Positions 15,114 to 20,701 of a DNA stretch of 64,000 nucleotides are shown here, in pieces. Both the position numbers and the translations under genes were made by a program. Under the pieces are notes generated by a model. It searched no databases. It saw only the letters and a list, made by a program, of their open reading frames with translations, and was not told the origin of the DNA. The stretch comes from Robiginitalea sediminis (GTDB taxonomy: Bacteria; Bacteroidota; Bacteroidia; Flavobacteriales; Flavobacteriaceae): positions 603,558 through 667,557 of the forward strand of contig NZ_NGNR01000002.1 of the NCBI RefSeq assembly GCF_002198115.1. The letters are read 5' to 3'. Numbering within the stretch: position 1 is the first letter of the stretch; each line of letters opens with the position of its first letter.

Positions 15114-15779
15114 ATGACGAAAGCAGAAAAAGCGGCCTTTGTAATGGAAACCCTGGAAGAATGCTATCCGGAGGTTCCCATCCCGCTGGAACATACAGAT
15201 CCGTACACCTTGCTGATAGCCGTATTGCTTAGTGCACAGAGCACCGATGTCCGGGTGAACCAGACCACGCCCCTGCTGTTCGACCGCGCGGACAACCCCG
15301 CGGCTATGGTGCGCCTCAGTGTAGACCAGATCCGGGAGATTATCCGGCCGGTAGGCCTCTCCCCTACCAAGGCGCGGGCCATCCACCGCTTGTCCGAGAT
15401 TCTGCTCGAAGACTATAAGGGGGAAGTCCCCCGGGAACTGGAGGCCCTGGAAACCCTCCCAGGGGTGGGCCATAAAACGGCCAGCGTGGTGGTGTCTCAG
15501 GCATTTGGGGTTCCGGCCTTTCCCGTAGATACGCATATCCATCGGCTCATGTACCGTTGGGGGTTATCTAATGGCAAGAACGTCGTTCAAACTGAAAAGG
15601 ACGCCAAACGGTTGTTCCCCAGGGAGGCCTGGAATAAATTGCATTTGCAGATCATCTGGTACGGCAGGGAGTATTCCCCGGCCCGCGGGTGGGACCTTGA
15701 AAAGGATATCATTACACGAAAAATTGGCCGGAAATCGGTGCTTCGGGAGTACGAAGCCAAAAAAAAGGCCCGCAAATAA
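15114..15779 (+). CDS. nth: Endonuclease III lacking the iron-sulfur cluster cysteines
   Basis: A 221-residue base-excision-repair DNA glycosylase/AP lyase for oxidised pyrimidines. The helix-hairpin-helix LPGVGHKTASVV (115-126) contains the catalytic Lys121, and the catalytic Asp139 lies in PVDTHIHR. The C-terminal region, which in E. coli Nth binds a 4Fe-4S cluster through four cysteines, reads YGREYSPARGWDLEKDIITR here and contains no Cys; the only Cys in the whole protein is Cys17. I believe cluster-less Nth is usual in flavobacteria. The last codons and stop lie within a hairpin acting as terminator for the opposite strand. Confidence 0.93.
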   Translation: MTKAEKAAFVMETLEECYPEVPIPLEHTDPYTLLIAVLLSAQSTDVRVNQTTPLLFDRADNPAAMVRLSVDQIREIIRPVGLSPTKARAIHRLSEILLEDYKGEVPRELEALETLPGVGHKTASVVVSQAFGVPAFPVDTHIHRLMYRWGLSNGKNVVQTEKDAKRLFPREAWNKLHLQIIWYGREYSPARGWDLEKDIITRKIGRKSVLREYEAKKKARK

Positions 15780-15786
15780 GCGGGCC
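15759..15786 (-). terminator. Intrinsic terminator of the 47-residue protein gene, inside the 3' end of nth
   Basis: GGCCCGC (15767-15773), loop AAATAA, GCGGGCC (15780-15786). Read on the minus strand it is followed by T8 (15759-15766), the form of a strong intrinsic terminator. It begins 8 nt after the stop of the small gene at 15795 and supports that this gene ends a minus-strand transcript. The loop contains the nth stop codon. Confidence 0.85.
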
Positions 15787-15794
15787 TCGATATC

Positions 15795-15938
15795 TTAATT
15801 CAAGATGGTTTCGAAGGGTATACCTTTATACTCCAGGTAGTGTAAAGCCCTGGAATACTGCATTAAAAGGGAGATGGTCTCCTTTTTGGCCTGAATTACC
15901 TCACAGGCGTTGGCGTGTTCTGAGTAAATTTTTTCCAT
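15795..15938 (-). CDS. 47-residue small protein downstream of an ECF sigma factor (copy 1)
   Basis: ATG 15938 to TAA 15795 encodes 47 residues beginning MEKIYSEHANACEVIQAKKE and ending PFETILN. It has no signal peptide or membrane segment; residues about 20-36 could form an amphipathic helix, and there is a single Cys at 12. It aligns without gaps to the 47-residue protein at 16869-17012 (16 identities by eye, including Met1, Tyr5, Cys12-Glu13, Tyr28-Ser29, Gly39, Phe42-Glu43, Leu46-Asn47). Each copy lies 65-73 nt downstream of an ECF sigma gene on the same strand, and this one is closed by an intrinsic terminator. No function is known to me; a partner or regulator of the sigma factor is a guess from context. 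Confidence 0.8.
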   Translation of the reverse strand: MEKIYSEHANACEVIQAKKETISLLMQYSRALHYLEYKGIPFETILN

Positions 15939-16003
15939 ATGCTTTAGAGTTCGTTACACTTGTATAACGCAACCCATATGGAAATATTGCTCAGCTCGTA
16001 ATC

Positions 16004-16588
16004 CTAGTAGTTGGTCAATACGATATTGTTCTTCTGGATGATTTTCCTCAGGTTGATCAGGGCGTAGCGCATCCGGCCCAGGGCAGTGTTGATACTGACC
16101 CCTGTACATTCGGAAATCTCCTTGAAGCTCATGTCTTTATAGATCCGCATGATCAGCACATCCCGCTGGTCGTCGGGAAGCTCGTCGATGAGCATGCTCA
16201 GGTCGCTGTCTATCTGGTCCTTGATGAGCTGTTTTTCCACATTGGGTTTTTCATCCCCGATAACCGAGAAGATATTGAAGTCGTCGCCCCCCTCGAATTT
16301 GGGCATCCGTTTGTTCTTCCGGAAATAATCGATAATCAGGTTGTGTGCAATCCGCATCACCCATGGCAGGAACTTACCTTCCTCACTGTAGTTTCCTTTC
16401 TTAAGGGTTTTAATGACCTTAATAAAGGTGTCCTGGAAAATATCCTCGGCGGCATCCCTGTCCAGCACTTTGGAGTAGATAAAACTGGTAATGCGCTGGT
16501 TGTGGCGGTTGATCAGGATTTCGAGGGCGCGTTCGTCTCCGCTGATATAATCCTGTACCAGGGTTGAGTCGTCGGTCTGGTGTTCCAT
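16004..16588 (-). CDS. ECF-type RNA polymerase sigma factor (copy 1)
   Basis: A 194-residue sigma-70 family factor with sigma region 2 (about residues 20-95, containing DIFQDTFIKVIKTL and LPWVMRIAHNLIIDYFR) and region 4 (about 125-185, LPDDQRDVLIMRIYKDMSFKEISECTGVSINTALGRMRYAL). It is the extracytoplasmic-function type, without regions 1.1 or 3. It is close to the sigma factor at 17086-17670 over its full equal length. No classical membrane anti-sigma gene is adjacent; instead a 47-residue protein follows 65 nt downstream. Targets cannot be inferred. Confidence 0.94.
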   Translation of the reverse strand: MEHQTDDSTLVQDYISGDERALEILINRHNQRITSFIYSKVLDRDAAEDIFQDTFIKVIKTLKKGNYSEEGKFLPWVMRIAHNLIIDYFRKNKRMPKFEGGDDFNIFSVIGDEKPNVEKQLIKDQIDSDLSMLIDELPDDQRDVLIMRIYKDMSFKEISECTGVSINTALGRMRYALINLRKIIQKNNIVLTNY

Positions 16589-16666
16589 AGAGCGTACGTA
16601 TTGATTCAGTTAATGGCCTGTTGGCTTTGGTGATTACGATTATGTGTCCGGGTCTCAAACACAATT

Positions 16667-16674
16667 TAAAAGTA
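16667..16674 (-). promoter_or_regulatory. Candidate -7 element for sigma factor copy 1
   Basis: TACTTTTA on the minus strand, 78 nt upstream of ATG 16588, in the 280-nt gap 16589-16868. No TTTG at the expected -33. The rest of the gap contains no ORF or hairpin I can support. Confidence 0.35.
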
Positions 16675-16868
16675 GCCAAAGGGCCTACGCTCGGAAAAAC
16701 ATTGTTGTAAAAGGGCGGATTCTTGATGTAAAAGCCGGATTTTAGCTTTTATTCCTATTTACGGGGTATGCGGCGTAGTTACCTGTACGGGATTGTACGA
16801 TTCGCCTTACCTGCGGAATCCGTATCAGAGAAGGGTGATTCAGGGCACTGGAAACCCCTTGGAGGAAA

Positions 16869-17012
16869 TCAATTGAGGTTGTTCTCGAAAACCATTCCCT
16901 CGGCCTTTACAATAGAGAGGGATTTGGAATAGTCCAGTAGGAACTTAACGGTACCTTTGGAGGCAGATACCAATTCGCACTTTTCAGTAGACGGGGTGTA
17001 GAGTTGATCCAT
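16869..17012 (-). CDS. 47-residue small protein downstream of an ECF sigma factor (copy 2)
   Basis: ATG 17012 encodes 47 residues starting MDQLYTPSTEKCELVSASKG and ending VFENNLN. The frame is open 15 codons further upstream, but only the 17012 start gives exactly the length and N-terminus of the paralog at 15795-15938. It has one Cys (12), is soluble, and residues about 19-36 (KGTVKFLLDYSKSLSIVK) may form an amphipathic helix. It starts 73 nt after the sigma factor gene at 17086-17670 on the same strand. No terminator is evident after it, so read-through into copy 1 is possible. Confidence 0.8.
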   Translation of the reverse strand: MDQLYTPSTEKCELVSASKGTVKFLLDYSKSLSIVKAEGMVFENNLN

Positions 17013-17085
17013 AAGCCTTGCGCTGTTGTTTCCAAAATAACGCAAGGCTGCGGACACCTGATACCCCGCTTCGACCTATTGCCGA

Positions 17086-17670
17086 TTAATTCGTCAAAAC
17101 TATACTGTTCTCCTCGATGAGCTTTCTGAGGTTAATCAGGGCATAGCGCATACGCCCGAGGGCCGTATTGATACTGACCCCGGTACTTTCGGCAATTTCC
17201 TTAAAACTCATTTCCCGGTACATGCGCATTTGAATAACCTTCTGCTGGTCTTCCGGGAGCTGCGCTATGAGCCCTTCCAGGTCGGATTCGATCTGGTCCT
17301 TGATAAGCTGGTGCTCGGCATTGAGGGAACCATCCTGCATAATGGCGAAGATGTTGTACTCCTCGCTGGTCTCGTACCGGGGCATCCGGTTGCTTTTCCG
17401 ATAGTGGTCTATAACCAGGTTATGGGCAATGCGGATTACCCATGGGAGGAATTTGCCTTCCTCGTTATATTTCCCAAGCTTAAGGGTCCGGATCACCTTC
17501 ATAAAGGTATCCTGGAAGATATCCTCGGTAATCTCTTTGTCGAAGACCTTGGAATAGATGAATGAGGAAATGCGCTGGTTATAGCGGTTAATCAATACTT
17601 CGAGGGCCCTTTCGTCTCCTCCTCTGTACCGTTTGATCAGGATAGCATCGTCTGCCTGCAGAAGTTCCAT
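17086..17670 (-). CDS. ECF-type RNA polymerase sigma factor (copy 2)
   Basis: A 194-residue sigma factor with region 2 (EDIFQDTFMKVIRTL, LPWVIRIAHNLVIDHYR) and region 4 (LPEDQQKVIQMRMYREMSFKEIAESTGVSINTALGRMRYAL). It is clearly a paralog of the 16004-16588 factor: equal length and nearly identical region 4.2. Conserved Bacteroidota factors of this type often sit beside uvrA, as here (divergent, 244 nt away). A full -33/-7 promoter with a long leader of about 115 nt precedes it. Whether the two factors act on each other's promoters is not visible. Confidence 0.94.
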   Translation of the reverse strand: MELLQADDAILIKRYRGGDERALEVLINRYNQRISSFIYSKVFDKEITEDIFQDTFMKVIRTLKLGKYNEEGKFLPWVIRIAHNLVIDHYRKSNRMPRYETSEEYNIFAIMQDGSLNAEHQLIKDQIESDLEGLIAQLPEDQQKVIQMRMYREMSFKEIAESTGVSINTALGRMRYALINLRKLIEENSIVLTN

Positions 17671-17791
17671 AACTTACTTTTTTGAAGTAGCCCGGGCACC
17701 CGTCACAAAGAGGGGCTTCCAGACCGATTTGGGGTTTATAAATCAAAAAAGTAATGTTATGCGATAGGCATATAGATTTTGTGATGCGCCT

Positions 17792-17821
17792 CAAATATAA
17801 GTAAAATAAAATAGCGTCAAA
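17792..17821 (-). promoter_or_regulatory. Promoter of sigma factor copy 2
   Basis: Minus-strand TTTG (17818-17821), 18-nt spacer, TATATTTG (17792-17799): both halves match the Bacteroidota consensus TTTG / TAnnTTTG. It lies about 120 nt from the ATG at 17670, so the leader is long. Confidence 0.6.
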
Positions 17822-17914: not shown

Positions 17915-20701
17915 ATGCCCGCTCCCTCCAAAGCAAGTACCAAAGACGTTATCAGTATACAGGGTGCCCGACTGCACAACCTGAAAAACATAAACGTAGA
18001 CATCCCACGCAACCGGCTGGTAGTTATCACCGGTATGTCCGGGTCGGGTAAGTCCAGCCTGGCATTCGATACGCTCTACGCCGAAGGACAGCGCCGGTAT
18101 GTGGAGAGCCTGTCTTCCTATGCCAGGCAATTCCTGGGGAAACTGGACAAGCCCAAAGTAGACCACATCCGCGGTATTGCACCGGCCATAGCTATAGAAC
18201 AGAAGGTAAATTCCACCAACCCCCGCTCTACCGTAGGGACCACCACGGAAATCTACGATTACCTGAAGCTGCTCTATGCCCGCATAGGGAAGACCATCTC
18301 CCCTATTTCCGGGAATGAGGTAAAGAAACACTCCGTTTCCGATGTAGTAGACCATATCTGTGCTCAGGAAGAAGGGGCCCGCATGCTGCTACTAGCCCCC
18401 GTATCTGTACCCGAAGGCCGTAAAACGGAAGATTTTCTTCAAATGCTCCATAAGCAGGGGTATGCCCGGATCCGGGCAGGGGGGGAAATGCTCCGGATAA
18501 GCCCCGAACTCGAGGTTACAGACCGGCAGTTAGAGCTGGTGGTAGACCGGATAGTGGCGCGGCCCGAAGACGAGGATTTCCGGAACCGACTGGCCGATGC
18601 CGTAGATACTGCGTTTTTTGAAGGGAAGGGCGAGTGCCTGGTTTTCCATATGGAATCGGGGCAGACTGAGGTCTTCAACAACCGCTTTGAGCTGGATGGC
18701 ATCAGCTTTCTGGAACCCAATGTGCACTTGTTTTCGTTCAACAACCCCTATGGGGCATGTCCTAAATGTGAAGGCTACGGGGACGTGATCGGGATTGACG
18801 AGGATCTCGTGATACCGAATACAGCCCTTTCGATCTACGACAATGCCATTTTCCCATGGCGGGGTGAAAGCATGGGTAAATACCGGGATAAACTGGTGAA
18901 CAACGCCTATAAATTCGATTTTCCCATCCACAAACCCTGGTACGAGCTTAGCGAGGAGCAACAGACTCTGGTTTGGGAAGGCAATACCTACTTCACAGGG
19001 CTTAATGCCTTTTTCGCCAAGCTGGAGGAAAAGAGTTACAAAATCCAGAACCGGGTCATGCTATCCCGTTACCGGGGTAAAACCCGGTGCCCGAAGTGTA
19101 TGGGGAAACGGCTGCGGGAAGAAGCGCACAACGTGCGTATATACGGAAAATCCATCTCGGACCTGGTGGAAGTCCCTATTTACGCCCTGGCTGCCTTTTT
19201 TGATGACCTCCAGTTGAGCGATCACGACCGGCAAGTGGCGGCGCGCCTGCTTACCGAAATCCGAAACCGTCTGGGCTACCTCATGCAGGTGGGGCTCGGT
19301 TACCTCACCCTGAACCGGAAATCGAATTCCCTTTCCGGGGGGGAAAGCCAGCGCATTAACCTGGCTACCTCCCTTGGCAGCAGCCTGGTGGGGTCCATGT
19401 ACATTCTGGACGAACCCAGCATAGGGTTACACCCCCGCGATACGGAGAACCTGATCCGCGTGCTGGAATCGCTGCGCGACCTGGGCAATACCGTAATTGT
19501 TGTAGAACACGACGAGGACATGATGCGGGCCGCGGATTACATTATCGACATCGGGCCGGAGGCCGGCACCCTTGGGGGCGAGGTAGTAGCCCAGGGGGAT
19601 TTACAGAAAATCCTGACCTCAGACAGTTTTACCGCCCGCTACCTCAGTGGTGATCTTCGCATTGAGGTTCCCGCCAATAGGCGCAAGGGCAAAGGCTTTA
19701 TCGAAATCCTGGGAGCCAGGCAAAACAACCTGCAGCATATAGATGTGAGGTTTCCTCTGCAATGCCTGACCGTGGTTACAGGGGTATCGGGAAGCGGGAA
19801 AAGCACCCTGGTTAAAGGAATCCTGTACCCCGTAATGCAGAAAGCCCTGGGAGGATACGGGGAAAAAGCGGGGCAGCATACGGCTGTGGAAGGGGAATAT
19901 AAATTCCTCTCCTACGTGGAATTCGTAGACCAGAACCCCATTGGCCGATCCTCAAGGTCCAACCCTGTGACCTACCTGAAGGCCTACGACGAGATCCGCA
20001 ACTTGTTTGCCTCCATGAAGCTGAGTAAAATAAGGGGGTATAAGGCCAAACACTTTTCCTTTAATATCGATGGGGGGCGCTGCGAGAAATGCAAGGGAGA
20101 CGGGGAAATTACCGTGGAAATGCAATTCATGGCAGATGTGCACCTGGAATGCGACCAGTGCAAGGGGAAGCGATTTAAAAAGGAGGTGCTGGAAGTCACC
20201 TTCGAAGGGGCCAACATCAGCGATGTCCTGAGTATGACCGTAGACGATTCTATCGCCTTTTTCCGAAACCATAAACAGGAAAAGATCGCCCAGAAACTGC
20301 AACCGCTGCAGGATGTGGGACTGGGCTACGTTACCCTGGGCCAACCCTCCTCCACCCTTTCGGGCGGGGAGGCCCAGCGCATTAAACTGGCTTCCTTCCT
20401 CGGGAAGGGTCAGAGCCGGGAAAAAGGGCTGTTCATTTTCGATGAGCCCACCACCGGCCTCCATTTCCACGACATCCACAAGCTCCTGAAGTCCTTTGAA
20501 GCCCTCATAGACAAGGGGCACTCTATCATAGTAATTGAGCACAACCCGGAACTTATCAAATGTGCGGACCATATGATAGACCTGGGCCCGGAAGGTGGAG
20601 ACAAGGGCGGGAGACTCCTGGGGACCGGGACCCCCGAGGCCTTGGCGGAGAACCCGGAATCCGTTACCGGCAAGTTTCTTAAAGACAAACTTTTTTCCTG
20701 A
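17915..20701 (+). CDS. uvrA: Excinuclease ABC subunit A
   Basis: A 928-residue DNA-damage recognition ATPase of nucleotide excision repair. Two ABC modules are present: Walker [10 protein letters not shown] near the N-terminus and GVSGSGKST near residue 630; signature LSGGESQR near 475 and LSGGEAQR near 810; Walker [11 protein letters not shown] and [10 protein letters not shown]. The C-terminal zinc finger is intact (CEKCKGDGE...CDQCKGKRF). The insertion-domain zinc site is atypical: only CPKC is seen after FSFNNPYGA, with no CxxC before it, where E. coli has CPIC. A later CPKC at MGKRL is the separate conserved motif. The gene is divergent from the ECF sigma pair and is not visibly in an operon. 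Confidence 0.97.

Follow-up and report, generated by a model that had tools for sequence, protein, structure and literature searches.

Among the known partners of extracytoplasmic function (ECF) sigma factors are the anti-sigma factors with a class I anti-sigma domain (ASDI), such as RseA, RsiW and ChrR. According to the accessible parts of a survey (PMC7406223), helices 1-3 of the ASDI form a bundle and helix 4 is flexibly linked to it, and 12 of the 14 strongest coevolving contacts are between helix 4 and sigma2 (regions 2.1/2.2, where sigma2 meets the clamp helices of the polymerase), with the other 2 between helix 1 and sigma4. The same text places class I domains beside 6% of the ECF genes of Bacteroidetes, against 32% over all phyla. 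We analyzed a stretch of 64,000 nucleotides of the Robiginitalea sediminis genome (contig NZ_NGNR01000002.1, positions 603,558 to 667,557 of the forward strand; here called the window) in which two ECF sigma genes are each followed by a gene for a protein of 47 residues. We consider it probable that this protein acts on the neighbouring sigma factor as a soluble anti-sigma factor of miniature size, and that its ancestor was a class I anti-sigma factor anchored in the membrane.

CnrY, the class II anti-sigma factor of CnrH, is membrane-bound and resembles the 47-residue protein in that its sigma-binding part is very short. It differs in having two helices, in contrast to the one predicted helix plus hairpin, and no membrane helix, of the 47-residue protein. 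The class II arrangement, in which two helices wrap sigma4 and sigma2, was not seen in the AlphaFold model of the single short chain, where a helix induced by binding could be missed. As described in the available text of PMC7406223, the last helix of CnrY sits on sigma2 as helix 4 of the ASDI does, and a dual contact is made with two helices. Two other systems are similar by their descriptions in the accessible sections of PMC8999054: NepR is a soluble anti-sigma factor paired with the ECF sigma factor EcfG (ECF15), and CfrX is a soluble small protein proposed as the anti-sigma factor of SigX (ECF102). CfrX differs in that it is proposed to be part of a porin/channel complex in Pseudomonas (PMC8999054). 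The survey (PMC7406223) also cites that no ASDI is conserved beside the genes of the RpoE-like group ECF03, to which the window sigma factors may or may not belong. Porphyromonas SigP (193 amino acids, bound by PorX; PMC4800418, PMC11320123) and Riemerella RA0C_1534 (PMC6557517) may be orthologues of the sigma factor, as far as the descriptions in the available excerpts go. No such small partner was described in the literature on ECF partners in Bacteroidetes and Flavobacterium and on minimal anti-sigma factors, as covered by titles, abstract openings and few subscription papers.

The window contains two sigma-small units on the same strand:

15795-15938, minus strand: small A, mini anti-sigma-like protein (putative), 47 amino acids from the ATG; match to the family profile, E 2.0e-21
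16004-16588, minus strand: sigma A, ECF sigma factor, 194 amino acids; Pfam sigma-70 regions 2 and 4
16869-17012, minus strand: small B, mini anti-sigma-like protein (putative), 47 amino acids from the ATG; match to the family profile, E 1.7e-19
17086-17670, minus strand: sigma B, ECF sigma factor, 194 amino acids; Pfam sigma-70 regions 2 and 4

The spacers between sigma gene and small gene are 65 nt (A) and 73 nt (B), and this layout is as an earlier note on the DNA had read it. The two sigma factors are 67% identical over 190 amino acids. Small A and small B align without gaps and with 16 of 47 positions identical, as had also been noticed, with E 1e-12 in that one pairwise comparison. The sigma factors belong to the ECF group by their regions 2 and 4 and their fold (best Foldseek matches AlgU and sigmaE), and sigma A is up to 89% identical to named orthologues. 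Sigma A had 15 matches within the organism's own genome; sigma A and sigma B are the only two of this type, the next match being 24% identical. There is no membrane anti-sigma gene at the window locus.

The small gene is tied to its sigma gene. A search for the sigma factor in 84,980 species genomes gave at least 591 stretches, at least 577 of them confirmed. The best 80 of these (the named loci, which as best-scoring matches lean to close relatives) have a small open reading frame downstream of sigma in 80/80 cases; two sigma-small units are present in 25 and one in 55. We built a profile from 30 small proteins and searched 296 genomes of the phylum with it, obtaining 48 matches in 42 genomes. 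The 41 strong matches (E up to 3.3e-9; 36 genomes) all lie 53-119 nt behind the sigma gene on the same strand, and a position directly behind an ECF sigma gene is also that of ASDI genes. Of the seven weak matches, three lie 185-408 nt behind the sigma gene and four elsewhere. All 36 genomes belong to the window's order (Flavobacteriales, judging by the named relatives), and no other genome of that order is among the sigma matches listed. Searches with single sequences were less complete, finding 48/99 and 61/99 relatives. The small gene is absent from the surroundings of 10 other ECF genes of this organism. The proposed functional link between sigma factor and small protein is supported by these checks: the pair is conserved far beyond this strain, and a profile match, when strong, always adjoins a sigma gene of this kind.

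The small gene is under purifying selection. Pooled over eight independent close pairs, dN/dS was 0.12 (one pair, with few changes, gave 0.47). In the window's order the protein consists of two short tails on either side of one amphipathic helix (P-K-x-E-T-I-x-F-L-L-N-Y-S-K-A-L), and the last residue of the C-terminal tail is N, in most members preceded by L. Residues M1, Y5, T21, F24, L26, S29 and N47 are invariant or nearly so in 30 aligned small proteins. Of the identical residues that had been singled out between the two copies, S29 and N47 belong to this set, and Cys12 is not conserved. The length is also not fixed at exactly 47 residues, as had been supposed; it is 44-50 in the window's order. 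Family sigma factors mostly end in LTN and the small proteins mostly in LN, with the terminal N invariant in the 30. Such a C-terminus is possibly a recognition tail, for instance for proteolysis.

Longer proteins occupy the same place behind orthologous sigma genes in other lineages. The sigma factor was present in 54 of 60 genomes drawn evenly over the window's class. We labelled its partners as membrane, soluble, tiny or none by eye, from open reading frames and hydropathy; 37 loci were called none or unclear, doubt attaches to the labels of L227, with its weak hydropathy of 1.02, and of L231, whose reading frame runs off the locus end, and L294 and L320, which may hold further short forms, were left out. 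Outside the class and in the same phylum, 33 of 34 loci were labelled as encoding a membrane protein that begins with an anti-sigma-like domain and also has a hydrophobic stretch (peak hydropathy over 19 residues 1.02-2.79), and L236 was left unassigned. The absence of a membrane anti-sigma gene, which had been pointed out at the window locus, is therefore not general to this sigma factor. A first set of 36 class loci, from families other than the window's, comprised 11 with a soluble protein of 75-83 amino acids (in 11/11 starting before the sigma stop codon), 7 with a form of 64-70 amino acids, and 18 with neither. A second set, 47 newly fetched loci from the 54 genomes above, contained 22 forms of 55-79 amino acids, 5 soluble proteins of 75-79 amino acids and 2 membrane forms (L307 and L319), and 18 were none or unclear. 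In the window's order outside its own family, 10 loci have forms of 44-50 amino acids. An open reading frame that looks nth-like by eye also follows in several class loci. On the sigma tree like forms group together, with 18 changes needed compared to 73 in shuffles. In this large tree the outgroup is not one clade and has long branches, and the root was not used; the order of change, probably from long to short, is read from the membrane form outside the class. Class loci with the sigma gene and no recognised small partner include L204-L208, L243-L250, L304, L305, L317 and L318.

The size classes are connected by a stepwise chain of profile-profile matches. The 158 forms of 44-50 amino acids matched the 23 forms of 55-79 amino acids (score 57.3, E 2.9e-13), these matched 16 soluble domains (47.8, E 6.4e-10), and the soluble domains matched 20 membrane N-termini (61.5, E 1.2e-11). 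Shuffling of columns reached at most 17.2, 16.9 and 17.9 for the three steps, with 0/100 shuffles as high in each. An earlier, smaller test agrees (0/200 shuffles in four comparisons), and the 55-79 set also matched the two membrane forms found within the class (25.1, 0/100 shuffles). At the far end of the chain, the NCBIfam model NF052375 ('anti-sigma factor') matched three of three membrane N-termini with E 1.2e-8, 4.1e-7 and 1.1e-5, scores that are far below the cut-off of the model for whole proteins. It also matched L319, a membrane form of 194 amino acids within the class that contains the motif ILNNILTFSKS (E 1.9e-4).

The part that is retained in the 47-residue protein aligns with the end of the anti-sigma domain, where helix 4 lies. 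By this stepwise alignment, the retained piece appears to be the counterpart of helix 4, with which class I domains bind sigma2, and the longer relatives are like ASDI proteins in carrying a longer domain and a hydrophobic helix. Unlike ASDI proteins, the 47-residue form has neither helices 1-3 nor a membrane helix, and the sigma4 contact is gone together with any periplasmic or zinc sensor. It does not have the four-helix domain; one helix and a hairpin are predicted, and the C-terminal segment alone aligns. If our reading is right, the small protein does the work of one half of a class I anti-sigma factor, the half with helix 4; it is not a full member of the ASDI group.

We propose the following model. 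The ancestral protein behind the sigma gene would have combined an anti-sigma-like domain with a hydrophobic helix, as is seen in the deeper lineages. In the class, the parts in membrane and periplasm would have gone first (leaving 75-83 amino acids) and then most of helices 1-3 (leaving 55-79), and the end state in the window's order would be short tails around one amphipathic helix. This helix may bind regions 2.1/2.2 of sigma2 at the place taken by helix 4 of class I domains, which is proposed because the retained segment aligns where helix 4 lies, and capping of sigma2 would keep the sigma factor off core polymerase. Made from the same transcript as the sigma factor and with no membrane sensor, the small protein would act as a cytoplasmic buffer, and the sigma factor would be released by a cytoplasmic cue or by turnover of the small protein. 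Here we infer binding, inhibition, the contact surface and the release step.

Several results weigh against an anti-sigma function of this kind or lend it no support. The two ends of the size series do not match directly: comparison of the 44-50 set to the membrane set was not significant (13.8, E 0.039), that of the 55-79 set to the membrane set (14.3) was equalled in 4/100 shuffles, and that of the 44-50 set to the two class membrane forms (17.3) in 1/100. Family searches with both small proteins (Pfam and NCBIfam) gave nothing above noise, Pfam gave no anti-sigma family for seven proteins of the size series, no NCBIfam anti-sigma model matched either of two soluble domains or the membrane form L307 (which matched nothing at all), and a search of the PDB with the soluble/membrane profile returned no anti-sigma chain. 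Known ECF anti-sigma factors bind dually, with two helices, and the small protein, for which one helix is predicted, gives no sign of this. AlphaFold models of the small protein alone have one helix and a hairpin, with the N-terminal 18 residues unstructured. In a fusion in which sigma and small protein were read through the natural in-frame gap, with stop codons read as Gly, the confidence for the helix was about 89, as it was for the protein alone, so there was no sign of docking; the value speaks for a helix, and is evidence neither for nor against docking. Direct coupling analysis of 187 sigma-small pairs (effective number 72, underpowered) gave support neither way, and the sigma residues that discriminate A from B copies are spread over the protein with no region enriched, which likewise gives no support either way. 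Last, the sigma gene is present without a recognised partner in 18/36 and 18/47 of the fetched class loci.

Sigma genes without a recognised small gene would be easier to explain if the small protein were not the sole brake on the sigma factor. They therefore fit a different possibility, that the small protein binds the sigma factor as a positive co-factor and stabilises it or its contact with core polymerase, much as Crl and RbpA are positive co-factors for other sigma factors. The one-to-one pairing and the retention of both copies after duplication would fit such a co-factor equally well, and the helix has been reshaped (FLLNYSKAL, and C-terminal F-E-x-x-L-N), so that the ancestral sign of action may have changed. 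However, the relatives that can be traced behind the orthologous sigma gene look anti-sigma-like, and we regard a co-factor as unlikely. It had been left undivided in the earlier note whether the protein would be a co-regulator, an anti-sigma-like peptide or a co-factor; the link to the sigma factor is supported, and the anti-sigma option is now favoured over the co-factor because of the stepwise homology chain to membrane anti-sigma factors.

That chain would mislead if the resemblance were superficial, with a short amphipathic helix that is unrelated by descent and has another role in the operon. The first step does rest on about 27-35 columns, and the comparison to membrane anti-sigma factors fails when the soluble domains are skipped. 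Yet every step beats 100 to 200 column shuffles, all forms occupy one place behind the orthologous sigma gene, with nth-like reading frames (by eye) following in several lineages, and there is a membrane form with the same ILxxILxxSKS motif. A chance likeness therefore seems to us distinctly improbable. Graded shortening, together with several families that have no recognised form, could also be what remains of an ancestral anti-sigma factor in decay, with a leftover peptide that no longer regulates the sigma factor. Such a relic is very hard to reconcile with the low dN/dS, with residues that are nearly invariant across 30 diverse members, and with the retention of both copies in every named double locus, and we give it very little credence. 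We continue to favour a miniaturised anti-sigma factor.

Sigma gene and small gene were apparently duplicated together, at a time before many genera of the family parted. In FastTree trees of 123 sigma factors and of 123 small proteins (the latter resting on few columns), the B copies need two label changes on each, and both small genes are kept in 25/25 named double loci. The duplication perhaps had a single origin. These results fit the suggestion that the pairing was duplicated as a whole.

The operon begins with a recognisable promoter and a structured leader:

17792-17820, minus strand: primary-sigma-type promoter of the operon, TTG-N18-TAnnTTTG, from the sequence pattern
17659-17773, minus strand: structured leader RNA before sigma B, from covariance model, fold and pairing

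As read from the sequence, the promoter consists of TTG at 17820-17818, a spacer of 18 nt and TATATTTG at 17799-17792. The pattern, with its -7 consensus taken from the accessible text of PMC9723704 and PMC7366714, is present before 59 of 149 sigma genes of both copy kinds, compared to 1.2 in block-shuffled upstream regions. A crude ECF-type pattern, which would be a sign of autoregulation, was not enriched before the sigma genes (7/149 versus 11 shuffled). Upstream of sigma A (16589-16868, minus strand) there is a recurring TTTGG-TACTTT followed by GTGTTTGA or similar, which is also seen before the second copies of L095, L098 and L014. This stretch of the A copies, of which few were compared, may be a promoter of their own.

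A long-range RNA helix ends beside the start codon of the first sigma gene. The leader has GCCUAU and then an A/U-rich helix in which UUACUUUUUUGA pairs with UCAAAAAAGUAA; the second arm stops a few bases before the ATG of sigma B and covers the A-rich start region. The leader stands before the first sigma gene of each locus (single copies and B copies). Among the 80 named first copies, 76 have GC(C/T)TAT, 76 have the core sequences of the two arms (TACTT, AAGTA) with the spacing of the leader, and 74 have both. We tried 89 first-copy upstream regions, of which 10 did not fit the pattern (CCTAT plus an A-rich arm before the ATG) and 79 did. Seven of the 79 were omitted (L016, L017, L035 and L062, which were mis-cut, and L038, L045 and L088), leaving 72 aligned rows in which the motif, the rows having been chosen by pattern, looks more constant than it is.

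The helix is supported by covariation. Its choice goes back to inspection and to the predicted fold of the window copy; pairs were then counted directly. Over the 72 leaders, 90.2% of the positions of the 11-pair helix are paired, and 42 cells have changed on both sides compared to 13.9 in shuffles. The covariation score was 0.139, in contrast to 0.049 in shuffles (0/500 as high), and pairing dropped on sliding. The number of further pair types in the helix was not above that in shuffles (149/500). RNAalifold predicted no pair from the alignment, probably because the A-runs are unevenly placed and the loop length varies. The window leader folds with -39.7 kcal/mol (z -3.8), and the mean z of 24 leaders was -3.2.

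A covariance model locates the window leader at 17659-17773 (E 6.2e-9). In 25/25 named double loci, all of them in the training set, the sole match on the sense strand (E up to 0.1) precedes the first sigma gene and there is none before the second. Among 80 genomes of relatives, some of which supplied training rows, 40 had one match each (40 of the 49 of the family and 0 of the 31 outside). The small gene was located in 39 of these 40 genomes, and in 39/39 it starts 626-727 nt downstream of the leader, a distance into which the sigma gene fits. In 87 loci not used for training there were 15 matches up to E 1 (best E 2.7e-5), 14 of them on the start of the sigma gene; 13 end exactly 12 nt inside the gene, a placement that is helped by the start codon in the model. 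The leader may thus exist in some form outside the order as well.

Given its position, we infer that the RNA helix represses translation of the sigma gene. The leader might work as an RNA thermometer, by binding a protein or as a translational switch of some other kind, and would add control of sigma synthesis to that by the small protein. Like the rpoH thermometer, a leader RNA that occludes a start codon, it has a helix at the place where translation of a sigma gene begins. A comparison with Rfam up to E 1 gave no family, whether leader or thermometer, that overlaps 17659-17773. In a flavobacterial transcriptome study, the examples of structured 5' elements in the accessible main text are those before pheA, hisG, ftsY, acsA, alaS and rimP, and its supplements may list a sigma leader (PMC9723704).

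Based on these results, a sigma factor that is common across the class has partners that range from a membrane anti-sigma-like protein down to 47 residues, the smallest being invisible to the family searches used (Pfam, NCBIfam). If the small protein still inhibits, it would show how little of an anti-sigma factor suffices, provide a ready system for a minimal sigma2-blocking helix, and give a testable answer for one missing anti-sigma factor. The covarying leader is a second, independent handle on regulation, and small protein and leader together could hold the sigma factor off without an ordinary anti-sigma gene. We would give roughly even chances to a broader view, in which a free protein of about 47 residues, reduced to one helix that binds sigma2, pared stepwise from a membrane sensor and perhaps the smallest natural anti-sigma factor, governs a widely kept ECF sigma factor of Bacteroidota, the leader that hides the start codon is a second brake, and many ECF factors of the phylum that seem to have no anti-sigma factor may have unannotated mini-partners.

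The sigma-small units lie between conserved neighbours:

15114-15779, plus strand: nth-like endonuclease III gene, convergent neighbour; Pfam HhH-GPD
15765-15788, minus strand: intrinsic terminator after small A; stem of 9 pairs (7 G-C) and a T run
17915-20701, plus strand: uvrA-like gene, divergent neighbour; found in 79/80 named loci

The terminator-like hairpin (15788-15765) closes copy A, as had been recognised, and overlaps the 3' end of nth. We take 17915-20701 to be uvrA from its protein sequence. Across the 80 named loci nth is kept in 76, and a peroxiredoxin gene likewise in 76; the gene order around the sigma-small unit is old. In L058, L065, L089 and L091 there is no nth match in the fetched stretch, and uvrA and the sigma-small unit are present. 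In L296, the place behind the sigma gene is occupied by ribbon-helix-helix-like and PIN-like open reading frames that look, by eye, like a toxin-antitoxin pair.

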